This document shows positions 2,987-32,840 of a DNA stretch of 33,234 nt, piece after piece (positions within the stretch are counted from its first letter, which is position 1; each line of letters starts with the position of its first letter). The translations under genes and the position numbers were made by a program. The stretch spans positions 937,314-970,547 of the forward strand of contig JAMPBQ010000001.1 in NCBI GenBank assembly GCA_023666615.1, written 5' to 3'. Under the pieces are notes generated by a model. The model was given only the letters and a program-made list of their open reading frames with translations, searched no databases and was not told where the DNA came from. Origin of the DNA: Clostridium sp. (lineage in GTDB: Bacteria; Bacteroidota; Bacteroidia; Bacteroidales; Muribaculaceae).

Positions 2987-4375
2987 ATGAAGAGAATAAA
3001 GATAAAGGATATATTCACGATTGCGCCGGAAGGACAAGAAGTGGAGGTGAAGGGCTGGGTGCGCAGCCGCAGAGGCAACAAGTACGTGCAGTTTGTGGCG
3101 CTCAACGACGGCTCATGCATCAAGAATCTGCAGATAGTGTTTGACATGCAGAAATTCAAGGATGAAGACTTGAAGCTGATTACCACGGGGTCATCGCTGC
3201 GCGTGGCCGGCCTATTGGTGGAATCGCAGGGCAAGGGCCAGACCTGCGAGGTGCAGGCGTCGGAATTTGAGGTTTACGGCACGGCCGACCCCGAAGAATA
3301 CCCCTTGCAGAAGAAAGGGCACTCGCTGGAATTTCTGCGCGAAAAGGCTCACCTGCGCCCGCGCACCAACACGTTCTCGGCAGTGCTGAGAGTGCGTTCG
3401 GCCTTGGCTTTCGCAGTGCATAAATTTTTCCAAGAGAAAGGCTTTTACTACCTGAACACGCCGTTGATTACGGCCAGCGACTGCGAAGGCGCAGGCGCAA
3501 TGTTCCAGGTTACGACCCTCGACCTTGAGAACCTGCCGCGCACCGAGGAAGGGAAGGTAGACTACAGCCAGGACTTCTTCGGCAAGCCCACGGCATTGAC
3601 CGTTTCGGGGCAGCTGGAAGGCGAGCTTGGCGCAACGGCACTTGGCGAAATCTACACTTTCGGGCCTACCTTCCGCGCAGAGAACAGCAACACTCCGCGG
3701 CACTTGTCGGAATTCTGGATGATTGAGCCCGAGATGGCGTTCTATGACATCACCGACAACATGGACCTGGCCGAGGAGTTCATAAAATACTGCATAGCCT
3801 ATGCTCTTGAGCATTGCCGCGAGGACATAGAATTTTTGGCCGAGCACTATGACAAGGATTTGATCAAGACCCTTGAATTTGTGCTTCACAACGACTTTGT
3901 GCGGCTGACCTACACCGAGGGCGTGAAGATACTTGAAGAATCGGGCAAGAAATTTGAATTCCCCGTGCATTGGGGCACCGACCTACAGAGCGAGCATGAG
4001 CGCTATCTGGTGGAAGAGCACTTCAAGAAGCCGGTGATCCTGACTGACTATCCGAAGGAAATCAAGGCTTTCTACATGAAGCAGAACGAGGATGGCAAGA
4101 CCGTGCGGGCGATGGACGTGCTCTTCCCGAAGATTGGGGAAATCATCGGGGGATCGGAGCGTGAGGCGGACTATGATAAGCTGATGGCGAGGATCACCGA
4201 GTGCCAGATACCGATGAAGGACATGTGGTGGTACCTTGACACGCGCAAATTCGGCACGGTGCCGCACAGCGGTTTTGGCTTAGGGTTTGAGCGTCTGGTG
4301 CTGTTTGTGACCGGCATGGCCAACATCCGCGACGTGATAGCGTTCCCCCGCTATCCGAAGAACGCTGAATTCTAA
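2987..4375 (+). CDS. asnS: Asparagine--tRNA ligase
   Basis: At 462 residues it matches the usual class IIb AsnRS length. It activates asparagine with ATP and charges tRNA-Asn in the cytoplasm. An N-terminal OB-fold anticodon-binding domain ([25 protein letters not shown]) covers about residues 15-110. The class II catalytic core carries motif 2 ([21 protein letters not shown]) and motif 3 ([15 protein letters not shown], then [13 protein letters not shown]). The FRAE.S.T.RHL.EF form fits AsnRS. The start is the ATG at 2987, with no Shine-Dalgarno but an A+T-rich lead. A REP-like palindrome sits 12 bp upstream, which could affect initiation. rpoN starts 88 bp downstream, beyond a small 9-bp repeat array. 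Confidence 0.97.
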
Positions 4376-29256: not shown

Positions 29257-29312
29257 TGATTATGAATTATGCATTATGAATTGAGCATTATGCATTGATC
29301 ATTATGAATTGT
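29257..29312. repeat. Second 7-bp array, 8 units (GCATTAT/GAATTAT), abutting radC stop
   Basis: TGATTAT, GAATTAT, GCATTAT, GAATTGA, GCATTAT, GCATTGA, TCATTAT and GAATTGT run head to tail. The last base touches the radC stop codon complement (29312-29314). It differs in unit from the adjacent TATTAAG array but keeps the 7-bp period. Confidence 0.88.
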
Positions 29313-30001
29313 CACAGCTTTCCATGATCATTATATGAGTAGTAGCCTGCGTCAGTGGCTATTATGTGGTCATACACCCTCACGTCGATGATCTTGGCGC
29401 CTTCAGCGATGCGTCGCGTAAGGCTGTCATCCTCGCCGCTGGGGCGAAGCTGTCCTGAGGGGTGGTTGTGGAAAAGCAGCATGCCCGAGGCCAGGCATTG
29501 AATGGCTTTGCGCAAGATAATCTTTATGTCAACCACCGTGGCCGTGGTGCCGCCCTGCGATATCCGCTCGCGGCGTATTTCGTGGCCGGCGCGATTGATG
29601 AAAAGCACCCAAAATTCCTCATGCTTTAGGCCGATGAAATGTGGCTTCATCATCTTGTAGGCCGATTCTGAGCTCGTCACCACCGGCGTGTTCAAGGCCT
29701 GGGCGTCGGCCACTGAGCGCGCGCCCAATTCGAGGGCCGCTAGAAGGGTGACGGCCTTTGCCGGCCCAATGCCGGGATATTTGGCGGAAAGCTCCTGCGG
29801 GGTGTATTTCGTGACCAGCGATAGGTGGTTGGCGTTGTCGCGCAGTATTTCGTCAGAGAGCTCAATTACGGACTTTCCCTTAATGCCCGTGGCGAAGAGC
29901 AGGGCCATGAGCTCGGCGTTGGAAAGCTCCTTGATTCTGCCGTCCAGCACCTTCTCCCTGGGCCGCTCGCTGGCGTCGAGGTCCTTTATCAATTTATTCA
30001 T
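29312..30001 (-). CDS. radC: RadC-family JAB-domain (MPN/JAMM) protein
   Basis: A 229-residue RadC protein. An N-terminal helix-hairpin-helix region (ELSAKYPGIGPAKAVTLLAALELG) comes before the JAMM metalloprotease-like domain. The metal motif HxHPSGxxxPSxxD is intact: H178-N-H180, PSG and D191. RadC was once linked to DNA repair; its real role is unsettled and DNA-repair function has been questioned, so no reaction is assigned. The start is the ATG at 30001. It lies 11 bp downstream of the RAYT gene on the same strand. Confidence 0.95.
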   Translation of the reverse strand: MNKLIKDLDASERPREKVLDGRIKELSNAELMALLFATGIKGKSVIELSDEILRDNANHLSLVTKYTPQELSAKYPGIGPAKAVTLLAALELGARSVADAQALNTPVVTSSESAYKMMKPHFIGLKHEEFWVLFINRAGHEIRRERISQGGTTATVVDIKIILRKAIQCLASGMLLFHNHPSGQLRPSGEDDSLTRRIAEGAKIIDVRVYDHIIATDAGYYSYNDHGKL

Positions 30002-30012
30002 TTCATCTCTTT

Positions 30013-30606
30013 CTATTTGAGATTAAAACAATCAGTGCTCCATTTCGCCACATTGGTTTCTATGTATTCTGCAATGTGATTGCCATCATGAACGTTTCTA
30101 ATGATATGGTCATGAAATCGTTTTTGCCAGCCAAAATCTATGTCATTGCGCCTAGCGTGCATTGTGACAGATTGTTTGAAGCCACCTATCACAACACCTA
30201 ATGCGGGTCGAATTGTAGGGATGCACCCTGGTGCATCCGTTGGCTGGCAAATGGAAATAATCGCATGTATATGATTGGGCATAACAATAAATAAAGGCAC
30301 CTCAATATAGGGATAGTGACTAGGCAAAGTTTTCAGAGCTTCATTTGCGAATATGCCTATTGGAGATAAATGCATAATATTATTTCTTATTTCTCCGAAG
30401 TAGTGTGTTTTATCACGGGTGCAAATTGTCACAAAATAGTCACCGCCAGAATAATTGTGAAATGGAGCCCTAATATTTTTTCTAGTTGGAAGATTTGTCT
30501 CTACGTCGGATGCGGCAGAGTGTGTCCCAGCAGTTTGCGGGTTTGGTTCTGTGGCGGATGCACCAGGGTGCATCCCTACAGTTTTGATATTGTCAACCAT
30601 TAGCAT
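30013..30606 (-). CDS. REP-associated tyrosine transposase (RAYT, Y1_Tnp / TnpA_REP family) with embedded REPs
   Basis: A 197-residue single-strand DNA nuclease/transposase. The core begins at about residue 41 (TRKNIRAPFHNYSGGDYFVTICT). The HUH motif is H112-I-H114 in MPNHIHAI and the catalytic Tyr is probably Y181 in AEYIETNVAKW; WQKRFHDHIIRN is also typical. Two perfect copies of the 24-bp palindrome lie in the frame: residues about 10-17 (VGMHPGAS) and 123-131 (TDAPGCIPT). A third, decayed copy encodes AGTHSAAS at about 26-33. The first REP even supplies an ATG (codon 12), so the real start may lie within it. The gene is clearly more A+T-rich than its neighbours, which suggests transfer. 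Reading frame intact; activity not proven. Confidence 0.88.
   Translation of the reverse strand: MLMVDNIKTVGMHPGASATEPNPQTAGTHSAASDVETNLPTRKNIRAPFHNYSGGDYFVTICTRDKTHYFGEIRNNIMHLSPIGIFANEALKTLPSHYPYIEVPLFIVMPNHIHAIISICQPTDAPGCIPTIRPALGVVIGGFKQSVTMHARRNDIDFGWQKRFHDHIIRNVHDGNHIAEYIETNVAKWSTDCFNLK
30215..30238 (+). repeat. REP-like palindrome, copy 2 (inside RAYT, central region)
   Basis: On the plus strand it reads GTAG, GGATGCACC, CT, GGTGCATCC, the same 24 bases as copies 1 and 3. It lies antisense to the RAYT gene and opposite in direction to the copy at 30556. It fills the variable segment between the HUH motif and the VVIGGFKQSV helix. Confidence 0.88.
30508..30528 (-). repeat. Decayed REP-like palindrome in RAYT N-terminus
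   Basis: On the minus strand GGGACACACTCTGCCGCATCC (split as GGGACACACTC and TGCCGCATCC) matches the intact REP at 16 of 21 positions by my count. It lies 48 bp, 16 codons, from the intact copy at 30556 and in the same frame. Confidence 0.4.
30556..30579 (-). repeat. REP-like palindrome, copy 3 (inside RAYT, 5' end)
   Basis: On the minus strand it reads GTAG, GGATGCACC, CT, GGTGCATCC. It overlaps codons 10-17 of the RAYT gene. Together with copy 2 it forms an inverted pair about 320 bp apart. Confidence 0.88.
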
Positions 30607-30622
30607 GATGATTTTAGCTTGT

Positions 30623-31624
30623 CTATTTCCCTTTGCGGATTGCGATTTCTTCGGCTTGGTCGCGGCCGCGGCCGAGAATTATTTTCAGGAAAAACGCCTT
30701 TATGAAACCGCAGCCGTAGCCCCAAAGCTGTATCAGCGACGACGGCACGGCCAGGGCCGCAATCTTCAGGCTGCGAGTCGTGGCGAGCGCGGCTGTGAAC
30801 ACAGCCAAAATGTAGGCCGCCAGCGGCAGGATAAACCACCATTTCACGAAAATGGCCAGCAAGATGAGCGCTATGCTGCCCAGCGTGAAAAGAGCCGGCA
30901 GCGTATGCACGGCCTTGAGCGAGCCCGGGTAGAGCAGCTTCAGGGTGATGCGCGACATGCCAAAAACGTACACCTGCCGCAGGAATTTCCTGAAGTCGAT
31001 GCGTCGCTTGTGCCAAACAGGCGCCTCGCGGATCAGTCCGATTGAGAAGCCCGCCAGGCGTATGCGGGTGCTCATGTCGATGTCCTCGGAGAACATCTCG
31101 CGGAATCCGCCCACCTTTTCATGCACTTTGCGCGAAAAGCCCATGTTGAATGTGCGGGGCGTGAACTTCTCCAGGCTTACCTTGCCTCCGCGTATGCCGC
31201 CCGTGGTGAGGAAGGATGTCATGGAGTAGTTTATGGCCTTCTGCACATCAGAGAATGACTCATGGGCGGCGTCGGGCCCTCCGAAGCAATCCAGCCCGCG
31301 CTCATCCAGCGCCTTCGAAATCGTGGCGAAATATTCGGGAGGAATCACGCAGTCGGAGTCAAAGAATATGAAATATTCGCCTTCGGCTCTCTCCATGCCG
31401 TAATTGCGTGCTATCGAGCGGCCCTCATTTTCCTTGTAGTAATACTTCACGTCCAGGCGGTCGGCATATTTGGCCGCCTCTTCGCCGCAGGGTTGAGTTG
31501 AGCCGTCCTCCACAAGGATCGCTTCAAAATTCCGGCATGTCTGCGCCGCCAGGCTCTCGAGCAGGTCATGGACTTCTCCGACGCGGTTGTAGACAGGGAC
31601 TATTATGGAAAATCGTTTTGACAT
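30623..31624 (-). CDS. Family 2 glycosyltransferase with C-terminal membrane helices
   Basis: A 333-residue GT-A enzyme. MSKRFSIIVPVYNR opens the fold; VEDGST and the DxD metal-sugar motif D89-S-D91 (FFDSDC) follow, then MGFSRKVHEKVGGFREMFSEDIDMSTRIRL, where the ED is the likely base region. Residues about 242-315 form two or three membrane helices, so it works at the inner membrane. It would add sugar to a lipid-linked or surface glycan; donor and acceptor are unknown. I use the ATG at 31624: the longer frame from 31750 would overlap the aminotransferase and adds unrelated residues. It is 19 bp downstream of the aminotransferase gene. Confidence 0.9.
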   Translation of the reverse strand: MSKRFSIIVPVYNRVGEVHDLLESLAAQTCRNFEAILVEDGSTQPCGEEAAKYADRLDVKYYYKENEGRSIARNYGMERAEGEYFIFFDSDCVIPPEYFATISKALDERGLDCFGGPDAAHESFSDVQKAINYSMTSFLTTGGIRGGKVSLEKFTPRTFNMGFSRKVHEKVGGFREMFSEDIDMSTRIRLAGFSIGLIREAPVWHKRRIDFRKFLRQVYVFGMSRITLKLLYPGSLKAVHTLPALFTLGSIALILLAIFVKWWFILPLAAYILAVFTAALATTRSLKIAALAVPSSLIQLWGYGCGFIKAFFLKIILGRGRDQAEEIAIRKGK

Positions 31625-31643
31625 AGGCGGAAATTTGTGCGGG

Positions 31644-32840
31644 CTATGATTTGGAGGCGTATGCTTCCAAGGCGGCGCGCAGCACCTCCAGGGCCTTGCG
31701 CAGGTCCTCCTTGTTGAGCACGTAGGCCACGCGCACCTCGTTGCGCCCAAGCTCGGGGTTGGAGTAGAATCCGGCGCCCGGCGCCATCATCACCGTGGCC
31801 CCTTCGTATTGGAAATCCCGCAGGCACCACTCGCAGAAGGCCTCGGCGTCGTCCACCGGTAGGCGCGCCACGGTGTAGAACGCGCCCATTGGGATGGGGG
31901 AATATACGCCGGGGATGAGGTTGAGGCCGTCGATCAGGCATTTGCGCCGCTCGAGGTATTCCTCGTACACCTCCCTGCGGTATTCCTCAGGGGCGTCGAT
32001 GCTGGCCTCGGCCACGATTTGGCCTATGAGGGGAGGGGAGAGGCGCGCTTGGCAGAATTTCAGCACGGTCTGCCTCACAAGGGCGTTCTTGGTGCAGAGG
32101 GCGCCGATGCGGATGCCGCATTCGCTGTAGCGCTTCGACACGGAATCTATCAGTATCACATTCTGCCCTATCCCCTCCAGGTGGCATGCGCTGATGTAGG
32201 GCGACCCCGTATAGATAAATTCGCGGTACACCTCGTCGCTGAACAGGTAGAGGTCATGCTTGAGCACGAGCTGGCGTATGGCCTCCATCTCGCGGCGTGT
32301 GTAGAGGTAGCCCGTCGGATTGTTGGGGTTGCATATGAGAATGGCGCGGGTGCGCTCGTTGATCAATTCTTCAAACTTCTCCACCGGAGGCAGTGCGAAG
32401 CCGTCGTCGATCGTCGATACCACGGGGCGGATCACCGCGCCGGCGCTGATTGCGAAGGCCATATAGTTGGCATAGGCGGGCTCGGGCACGATTATCTCGT
32501 CGCCGGGGTTGAGGCAGCTCAGGAAGGCGAACAGCACGGCCTCGCTGCCGCCGTTGGTTACGATAATCTCTTCGGGCGAGAGGTCGATGCCATAAGTGGC
32601 GTAGTATTGCGAAAGCTTTTTCCGCAGGCTGAGGAATCCCTGGCTGGGGCTGTACTCCAGCACTTTGCGGTCGATATGCTTCAGGGCGTCGAGCGCGCAC
32701 TGCGGGGTGGGGAGGTCGGGCTGGCCTATGTTCAGTCGGTACACCTTTATCCCTCTTTCCTCCGCCTCGTAAGCCAGCGGCGCGAGCTTGCGTATGGGGG
32801 ATTGCGGCATCTGCGCGCCGCGGATTGATATTTCGGGCAT
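31644..32840 (-). CDS. Class I/II pyridoxal-phosphate aminotransferase (aspartate-type)
   Basis: A 398-residue fold-type I aminotransferase, the usual length. The motifs are INIGQPDLPTP-like (LNIGQPDLPTP), VTNGGSEA, CNPNNPTG, SDEVYREF with D202 holding the pyridine nitrogen, and K236 in DSVSKRYSECGIRIG, the Schiff-base lysine. The late R of EVRVAYVL binds the substrate carboxylate. It most resembles aspartate or aromatic aminotransferases of subgroup I gamma; the exact substrate is unknown. I use the ATG at 32840; the longer frame from 32891 begins at the promoter box and adds an unrelated head. The glycosyltransferase lies 19 bp downstream, probably in the same transcript. Confidence 0.92.
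   Translation of the reverse strand: MPEISIRGAQMPQSPIRKLAPLAYEAEERGIKVYRLNIGQPDLPTPQCALDALKHIDRKVLEYSPSQGFLSLRKKLSQYYATYGIDLSPEEIIVTNGGSEAVLFAFLSCLNPGDEIIVPEPAYANYMAFAISAGAVIRPVVSTIDDGFALPPVEKFEELINERTRAILICNPNNPTGYLYTRREMEAIRQLVLKHDLYLFSDEVYREFIYTGSPYISACHLEGIGQNVILIDSVSKRYSECGIRIGALCTKNALVRQTVLKFCQARLSPPLIGQIVAEASIDAPEEYRREVYEEYLERRKCLIDGLNLIPGVYSPIPMGAFYTVARLPVDDAEAFCEWCLRDFQYEGATVMMAPGAGFYSNPELGRNEVRVAYVLNKEDLRKALEVLRAALEAYASKS

Follow-up and report, generated by a model that had tools for sequence, protein, structure and literature searches.

Whereas REPs multiply, the genes of RAYTs mostly remain low in number. The closest described systems are the tnpAREP genes of TnpAY1 subclass 2.4, in which REPs inserted in frame, as a rule between HuH and Y, are reported in the accessible part of Quentin et al. 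(2018; PMC6006769). The region of these insertions was modelled there as a peripheral loop, with little impact expected. RAYT group 4 of Bertels et al. (2017) belongs to this subclass, and the REP types found with the subclass are either canonical long, with three G:C pairs at the foot, or double-foot, which describes the subclass and does not define it (PMC6006769, same part). REPs inside many other genes were described by Di Nocera et al. (2013; PMC3733652, in part).

In the window, i.e. the whole stretch of 33,234 nucleotides analysed here, a RAYT-like gene (30013-30606, minus strand) holds REPs in its own frame. Because in-frame REPs between HuH and the tyrosine have already been published (PMC6006769, in part), the arrangement is of a known kind. 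The preliminary description of this DNA had assumed that REPs normally lie outside the gene; this needs correction, as in-gene REPs were reported for this type of RAYT in 2018. Likened to subclass 2.4 by its features, not by its place on the tree of that subclass, the gene shares the REP in frame between HuH and Y (30215-30238). The subclass in turn, in the accessible part of its description, has Bacteroidetes among its hosts and a GT[AG]G foot. Unlike in that description, both exact REPs of the window gene lie inside the ORF, with gaps of only 16 and 11 bp outside it, and the distance from HUH to the tyrosine is about 67 aa compared to a median of 88. The window REP has a single foot and a stem starting with G:C, G:C, A:T, whereas the long type of subclass 2.4 has three G:C pairs.

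The protein resembles the TnpAREP of E. coli (PDB 4er8), the sequence profile placing it in the Y1 HUH family. At the GTAG-reading positions, whose roles are taken from PMC6006769 (in part), it carries W, Q, H and R, and D replaces E100. In E. coli the REPs flank the gene, and activity depends on a bulge in their stems (PMC8266576, in part), whereas the REPs of the window sit within the gene and have a regular stem. Intragenic GTAG/CGTC REPs and the Rickettsia palindromic elements (PMC3733652, in part) are likewise short in-frame coding palindromes, but they occur in unrelated genes such as uvrA and not in the gene for the enzyme presumed to mobilise them. What looks new here is that the loop hairpin seems to be preserved as DNA and that relatives of the gene are prone to losing one of their halves there. 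Conservation of a loop REP as DNA, half-genes bounded by REPs and REPs confined to the RAYT were not met in the accessible parts of PMC6006769, PMC3733652, PMC2817692, PMC8266576 and PMC12306157, subscription literature lying mostly outside this scope.

The gene, its palindromes and its site

By its sequence, the ORF of 197 aa at 30013-30606 (-) is a RAYT/TnpAREP-type Y1 transposase, as had been proposed from the letters of the window. The HUH motif PNHIH (residues 110-114; 30265-30279, -) and the presumed catalytic Tyr181 (codon 30064-30066, -) provide the HUH and single tyrosine typical of RAYT/TnpAREP; H112, H114 and Y181 are invariant in 24 aligned sequences. The GTAG-reading residues W, Q, E/D, H and R are present, the protein containing the stretch WQKRFHDHIIR, and in the same alignment W160 and Q161 are invariant and R170 nearly so. 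NCBIfam REP_Tyr_transpos matched with 8.3e-14 and 51.7 bits. This score lies below the curated cut-off of 80 for the equivalog NF047646 (REP-associated tyrosine transposase), so that the label rests on the motifs and the association with REPs and not on membership in NF047646. Pfam Y1_Tnp gave an E-value of 0.094. With a profile of 24 relatives (A2), a single match was obtained among PDB sequences at E up to 0.01, namely 4er8, TnpArep. A second close copy was not found in the own genome, where three other matches had E-values of 2e-4 to 0.08; a Pfam search detected three more distant Y1 transposases there.

The 24-mer GTAGGGATGCACCCTGGTGCATCC occurs in three exact copies in the window, each consisting of a GTAG head and a 20-bp palindrome with 9-bp arms and a 2-bp centre. 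REP 1 (30556-30579, -; head at 30576-30579) lies in frame in the N-terminal tail, encodes VGMHPGAS (residues 10-17) and has its 9-bp stem about 27 nt downstream of the ATG. REP 2 (30215-30238, +) is inverted relative to REP 1, lies in frame in the post-HUH loop and encodes TDAPGCIPT (residues 123-131). The two perfect in-frame palindromes of opposite direction, as first described, are thus confirmed. The third exact copy (2951-2974, -) is located between the ORFs 1394-2914 and 2987-4375. The decayed copy that had also been claimed within the gene is real: at 30508-30528 (-), in the direction of REP 1, 5 of 21 positions differ from the 21-base REP core, and none of 400 resampled genes contains so good a match. 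Chance palindromes were rejected as an explanation. The 24-mer was absent from 100 shuffles of the window, the reversed genome gave no hit, and any perfect palindrome with arms of 9 was present in only 9 of 400 resampled genes, compared to two in the window RAYT.

The position of REP 1 is also occupied in L023 and, with other stems, in L024, L209, L211 and L212; the nucleotide position of REP 2 is common to ten orthologues. Both the N-terminus and the post-HUH loop, earlier suggested to have been built from REP insertions, do hold REP-derived sequence, in relatives as well. A REP origin of the in-gene palindromes is firmly established. Several related genes carry more than single copies. The N-terminal tail of L024 (G010) contains several in-frame copies of the paired variant GTAGGGCTGCACCCCGGTGCAGCC, while its loop REP is decayed. 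In-frame tandem arrays of REPs or REP heads precede the RAYT core in L030 and L053/L213 (VGTHA repeats; VGTHPGAS, RTHRGASLQ), and the loops of L099 and L116 contain tandem in-frame repeats (TDAINR x4; ASPLH repeats), as if pieces of REPs had been duplicated.

The gene occupies the junction between a gene at 30623-31750 (-; start uncertain), which we take to be glycosyltransferase-like, and one at 29312-30001 (-), presumably radC-like. The gaps are 16 bp before the RAYT start (30607-30622) and 11 bp after its stop (30002-30012). A radC match was found in 44 of 49 genomes. In all 29 other genus loci fetched, radC directly follows the glycosyltransferase-like gene and no RAYT match lies between them; the acquired unit is little more than the RAYT ORF. 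Within 27 kb on the window's side, the only exact REPs are those inside the RAYT. L170:700-1700, from the nearest radC relative (G102), shows a tandem duplication of about 560 bp that takes in the end of the glycosyltransferase-like gene together with the radC start; it is either real or an assembly artefact.

REPs in the genome, in the family and around other RAYT genes

The REP core was detected at 31 places of the own genome (2.87 Mb, 91 contigs) with up to two mismatches, and a GTAG-anchored pattern at 34 places, 15 of them exact by our own count; the reversed control gave 0 in both cases. The 24-mer is therefore present elsewhere in the genome, where its absence would have spoken against the first description, and dispersed cognate GTAG palindromes are a further mark of RAYT/TnpAREP. 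From the fetched loci 34 distinct copies were recovered, two of which sit in the RAYT itself. The ORFs over these copies were judged by eye alone. In L144 a REP lies in frame in an Ala/Pro-rich stretch of a 209-aa ORF (VGTHPGASP) and in L208 behind a hydrophobic stretch of a 300-aa ORF (VGSHPGATV); the remaining copies look intergenic or lie within unlikely ORFs.

In the family, 47 of 198 genomes contain the REP core, one paired position of which may be C or T. The first reading had made the gene a source as well as a target of REPs. The source half of this idea is a weak one: RAYT loci are the only places at which the in-gene stem is listed in G161, G120 and G058, and an origin of the dispersed copies from the gene REP was not borne out in these genomes. 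In G120 and G058 the dispersed copies more often have another stem. The pattern detects two REPs in G161 (95% complete), both within the RAYT, and a third about 40 bp beyond the gene if two mismatches are allowed. REPs of the gene's type thus lie only in or beside the RAYT of G161, a REP unit without progeny. G007 and G149, with 83 and 173 REP-core matches, are not among the 86 genomes listed with a RAYT match; their REPs could persist without this RAYT or may use another enzyme. The loop REP is absent in the close relatives L026, L028, L030, L032, L033, L034, L053, L149, L214, L216 and L217, and it can be absent despite many genomic REPs (G070: 148 matches). The stems of the 5' and the loop REP, compared by eye, are alike in 7 of 14 family loci and differ in the other 7, and full concert of the two was rejected.

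A wider set was examined with 130 RAYT genes extracted from the window and the fetched loci, of which 123 were kept below 90% identity. The genes were found via peptide patterns outside the loop REP or via whole-protein similarity, and in three rows (L076, L081, L120) the script put the HUH motif too early. Tagged palindromes, i.e. perfect ones with a GTAG/CTAC tag and arms of 9 or more, occur at 3.39 per kb in the post-HUH loop (48 genes), compared to 0.04 in the core before HUH and 0.19 in the core after the loop. Their density is 1.83 in the 300 bp upstream, N-terminal tails included, 1.40 in the 300 bp downstream, 0.16 between 300 and 1000 bp upstream and 0.05 farther downstream. From first-order resampled sequence, the expected total of tagged palindromes in a region does not exceed 0.15. 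The loop is dense in REPs but not alone in this, since densities of up to 3.8 per kb on the upstream and 2.5 on the downstream side are attained in the 50-bp bins that lie closest outside the core. With a relaxed scan (one mismatch, score 8 or more), 74 of 123 loops were positive, compared to 6 of 123 core segments of equal length and a mean of 2.6 for codon-shuffled loops; the wider collection contributed 57 of 75 (including the family member L053) and the family set 17 of 48.

In the 27 loci with tagged REPs in both loop and flank, likeness is 0.73 within a locus and 0.07 between loci. This own-locus likeness was reached by 0 of 10,000 permutations, and the own flank was best or tied in 21 loci. 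Where the nearest upstream REP and the loop REP are both single-footed, they are opposite in 10 of 10 pairs, five of which come from the window's family. A further 21 genes have tagged REPs in the loop only, 30 in the flank only and 45 in neither, and these counts do not support in-gene REPs as stand-ins for flanking ones. A generic double-foot pattern had between 2 and 87 places in 20 genomes from other groups, compared to 0 to 3 in the reversed control. Double-foot palindromes are dispersed there, though often few and of several stems. Clean steps of loop length by REP-sized blocks, for which the preliminary description had proposed to look, were not evident; the median from HUH to W is 69.5 aa with a tagged loop REP and 64 aa without.

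An alternative is mere tolerance. REPs may land near RAYT genes, where tail and loop tolerate them, and their likeness may arise by fresh insertion or conversion from the REP pool, with neither benefit nor self-targeting. The published view of subclass 2.4, a peripheral loop with little impact expected (PMC6006769, in part), agrees with it, as do the REPs in linkers of two other proteins of the own genome and the flanking bins, with densities near that of the loop. The peptides encoded by loop REPs also vary among loci and two reading frames are in use. We regard this explanation as a serious one, somewhat short of an even chance. Two observations fit it poorly: G161 keeps intact paired REPs without other copies to convert from, and silent sites are conserved at one fixed nucleotide position, whereas the other third positions of the gene have diverged.

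Conservation of the loop hairpin

The latter was seen in ten orthologues that align without gaps over the loop (window, L023, L024, L025, L027, L209-L212, L215). The nine REP codons have a third-position identity of 0.775, compared to 0.543 at HUH and 0.36-0.40 in other regions; at the amino-acid level, by contrast, the identity at HUH (0.88) exceeds that of the loop REP (0.79). Among the 8 distinct loop sequences 95.8% of the cells pair (shuffled mean 90.8), and changes on both sides were found in 3 of 9 stem pairs. The covariation score was reached by 0 of 500 shuffles, a control that ignores kinship although the rows share descent; the number of further pair types was no higher than in shuffles (281/500). 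The loop hairpin is conserved as DNA beyond the needs of the protein, with paired changes.

Ordinary protein conservation, which could have accounted for the palindromes, does not explain them: the palindrome is kept in the DNA and residues change with it. It was rejected as their cause by the silent-site and pairing results. Selection on amino acids for a REP-encoded peptide at work in the enzyme would agree with the fairly high identity of 0.79. It is nevertheless highly improbable, because third positions are more similar in the REP than at the better conserved HUH motif, paired substitutions in the DNA lead to other residues, some changes replacing I by V or A by T, and other peptides as well as another frame fill the loop across loci. 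Control at the RNA level, with hairpins near the start codon or in mid-gene lowering translation or stability of the RAYT message, is conceivable from the position of the REP 1 stem close to the ATG and from two departures in the loop alignment which are G-U pairs in message sense. Such control seems unlikely; the GTAG/CTAC foot, the mark of REPs as DNA sites, is kept together with the stem, and many relatives have flank or loop REPs and none near the start. A role of the in-gene REP at the DNA level is likely, though not separated from homogenisation. Retention under selection and repeated conversion both fit the conservation of the loop REP.

Half-genes at the loop REP and the preferred reading

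Six one-sided RAYT pieces inside contigs were inspected among the matches listed, all in draft assemblies. In five of them the break coincides with the loop REP or lies no more than about 10 nt away from it; if this zone is taken as one eighth of the gene, the chance is about 1.6e-4, calculated by hand and post hoc. For two deletions, an intact sister locus that has the same neighbours is available for comparison. In L153 (G055), compared with L210 (G294), the left flank of the N-terminal inverted REP of L210 is followed by one REP copy and then by the tyrosine half; the HUH half, which lies between two same-direction REPs in L210, is missing. Slippage suffices for this deletion because the joined REPs are in direct orientation. 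L199 (G058) and L025 (G120) are 96% identical in the downstream flank. In L199 the HUH half stops at the loop REP and the sequence resumes after about 13 bp inside the 3' REP of L025, so that the tyrosine half, located between two inverted REPs in L025, is missing. In three further cases the tyrosine half starts within about 10 nt of the loop-REP position, with the REP partly decayed (L201, G032), lost (L222, G329) or represented by its left part, to which the half-gene is fused (L223, G205). The exception is L224 (G265), a HUH half whose break, at MPN, precedes a REP by about 80 nt. Left out of the count were L200 (contig edge), G347:C104 (near a contig edge), L225 (upstream N run), L202, L227 and L228 (both halves matched), L226 (one full-length match), L203 (match from HUH to the end) and L204 and L206 (short C-terminal matches of more distant RAYTs). 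The view of the gene as a target of its enzyme thus stands in part: half-genes end at the loop REP, which fits cutting or recombination, but L153 needs only recombination between direct repeats.

With a probability of roughly 0.6, we suggest that the RAYT's own REP family has lodged in frame at two tolerant places, that the gene thereby carries its cognate substrate and that the occasional loss of half a gene is the price. The N-terminal tail and the post-HUH loop would be these places, with REPs in inverted orientation, reached presumably by the same process that spreads REPs. By analogy to TnpAREP and ordinary REPs, the RAYT may recognise the in-gene hairpins when single-stranded, and because of this recognition the gene would carry its substrate wherever it goes. 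The half-gene between the loop REP and the next REP would occasionally be lost, via cutting or via recombination of REP copies. Self-targeting, self-cutting and self-limitation are plausible.

A stronger version appears doubtful to us, namely that DNA-level selection keeps the in-gene hairpin as a self-recognition site. The enzyme would then act on its own gene, a self-contained REP unit with a built-in fuse, and the gene would be limited because action at the site deletes half-genes bounded by REPs.

A RAYT with cognate REPs in its coding frame offers a test in cis of the action of the enzyme on its own gene. The case bears on how REPs spread and why RAYTs stay few. Given the silent-site conservation and the half-gene deletions from REP to REP, the in-gene hairpin may be more than the tolerated insert as which it has been described so far.
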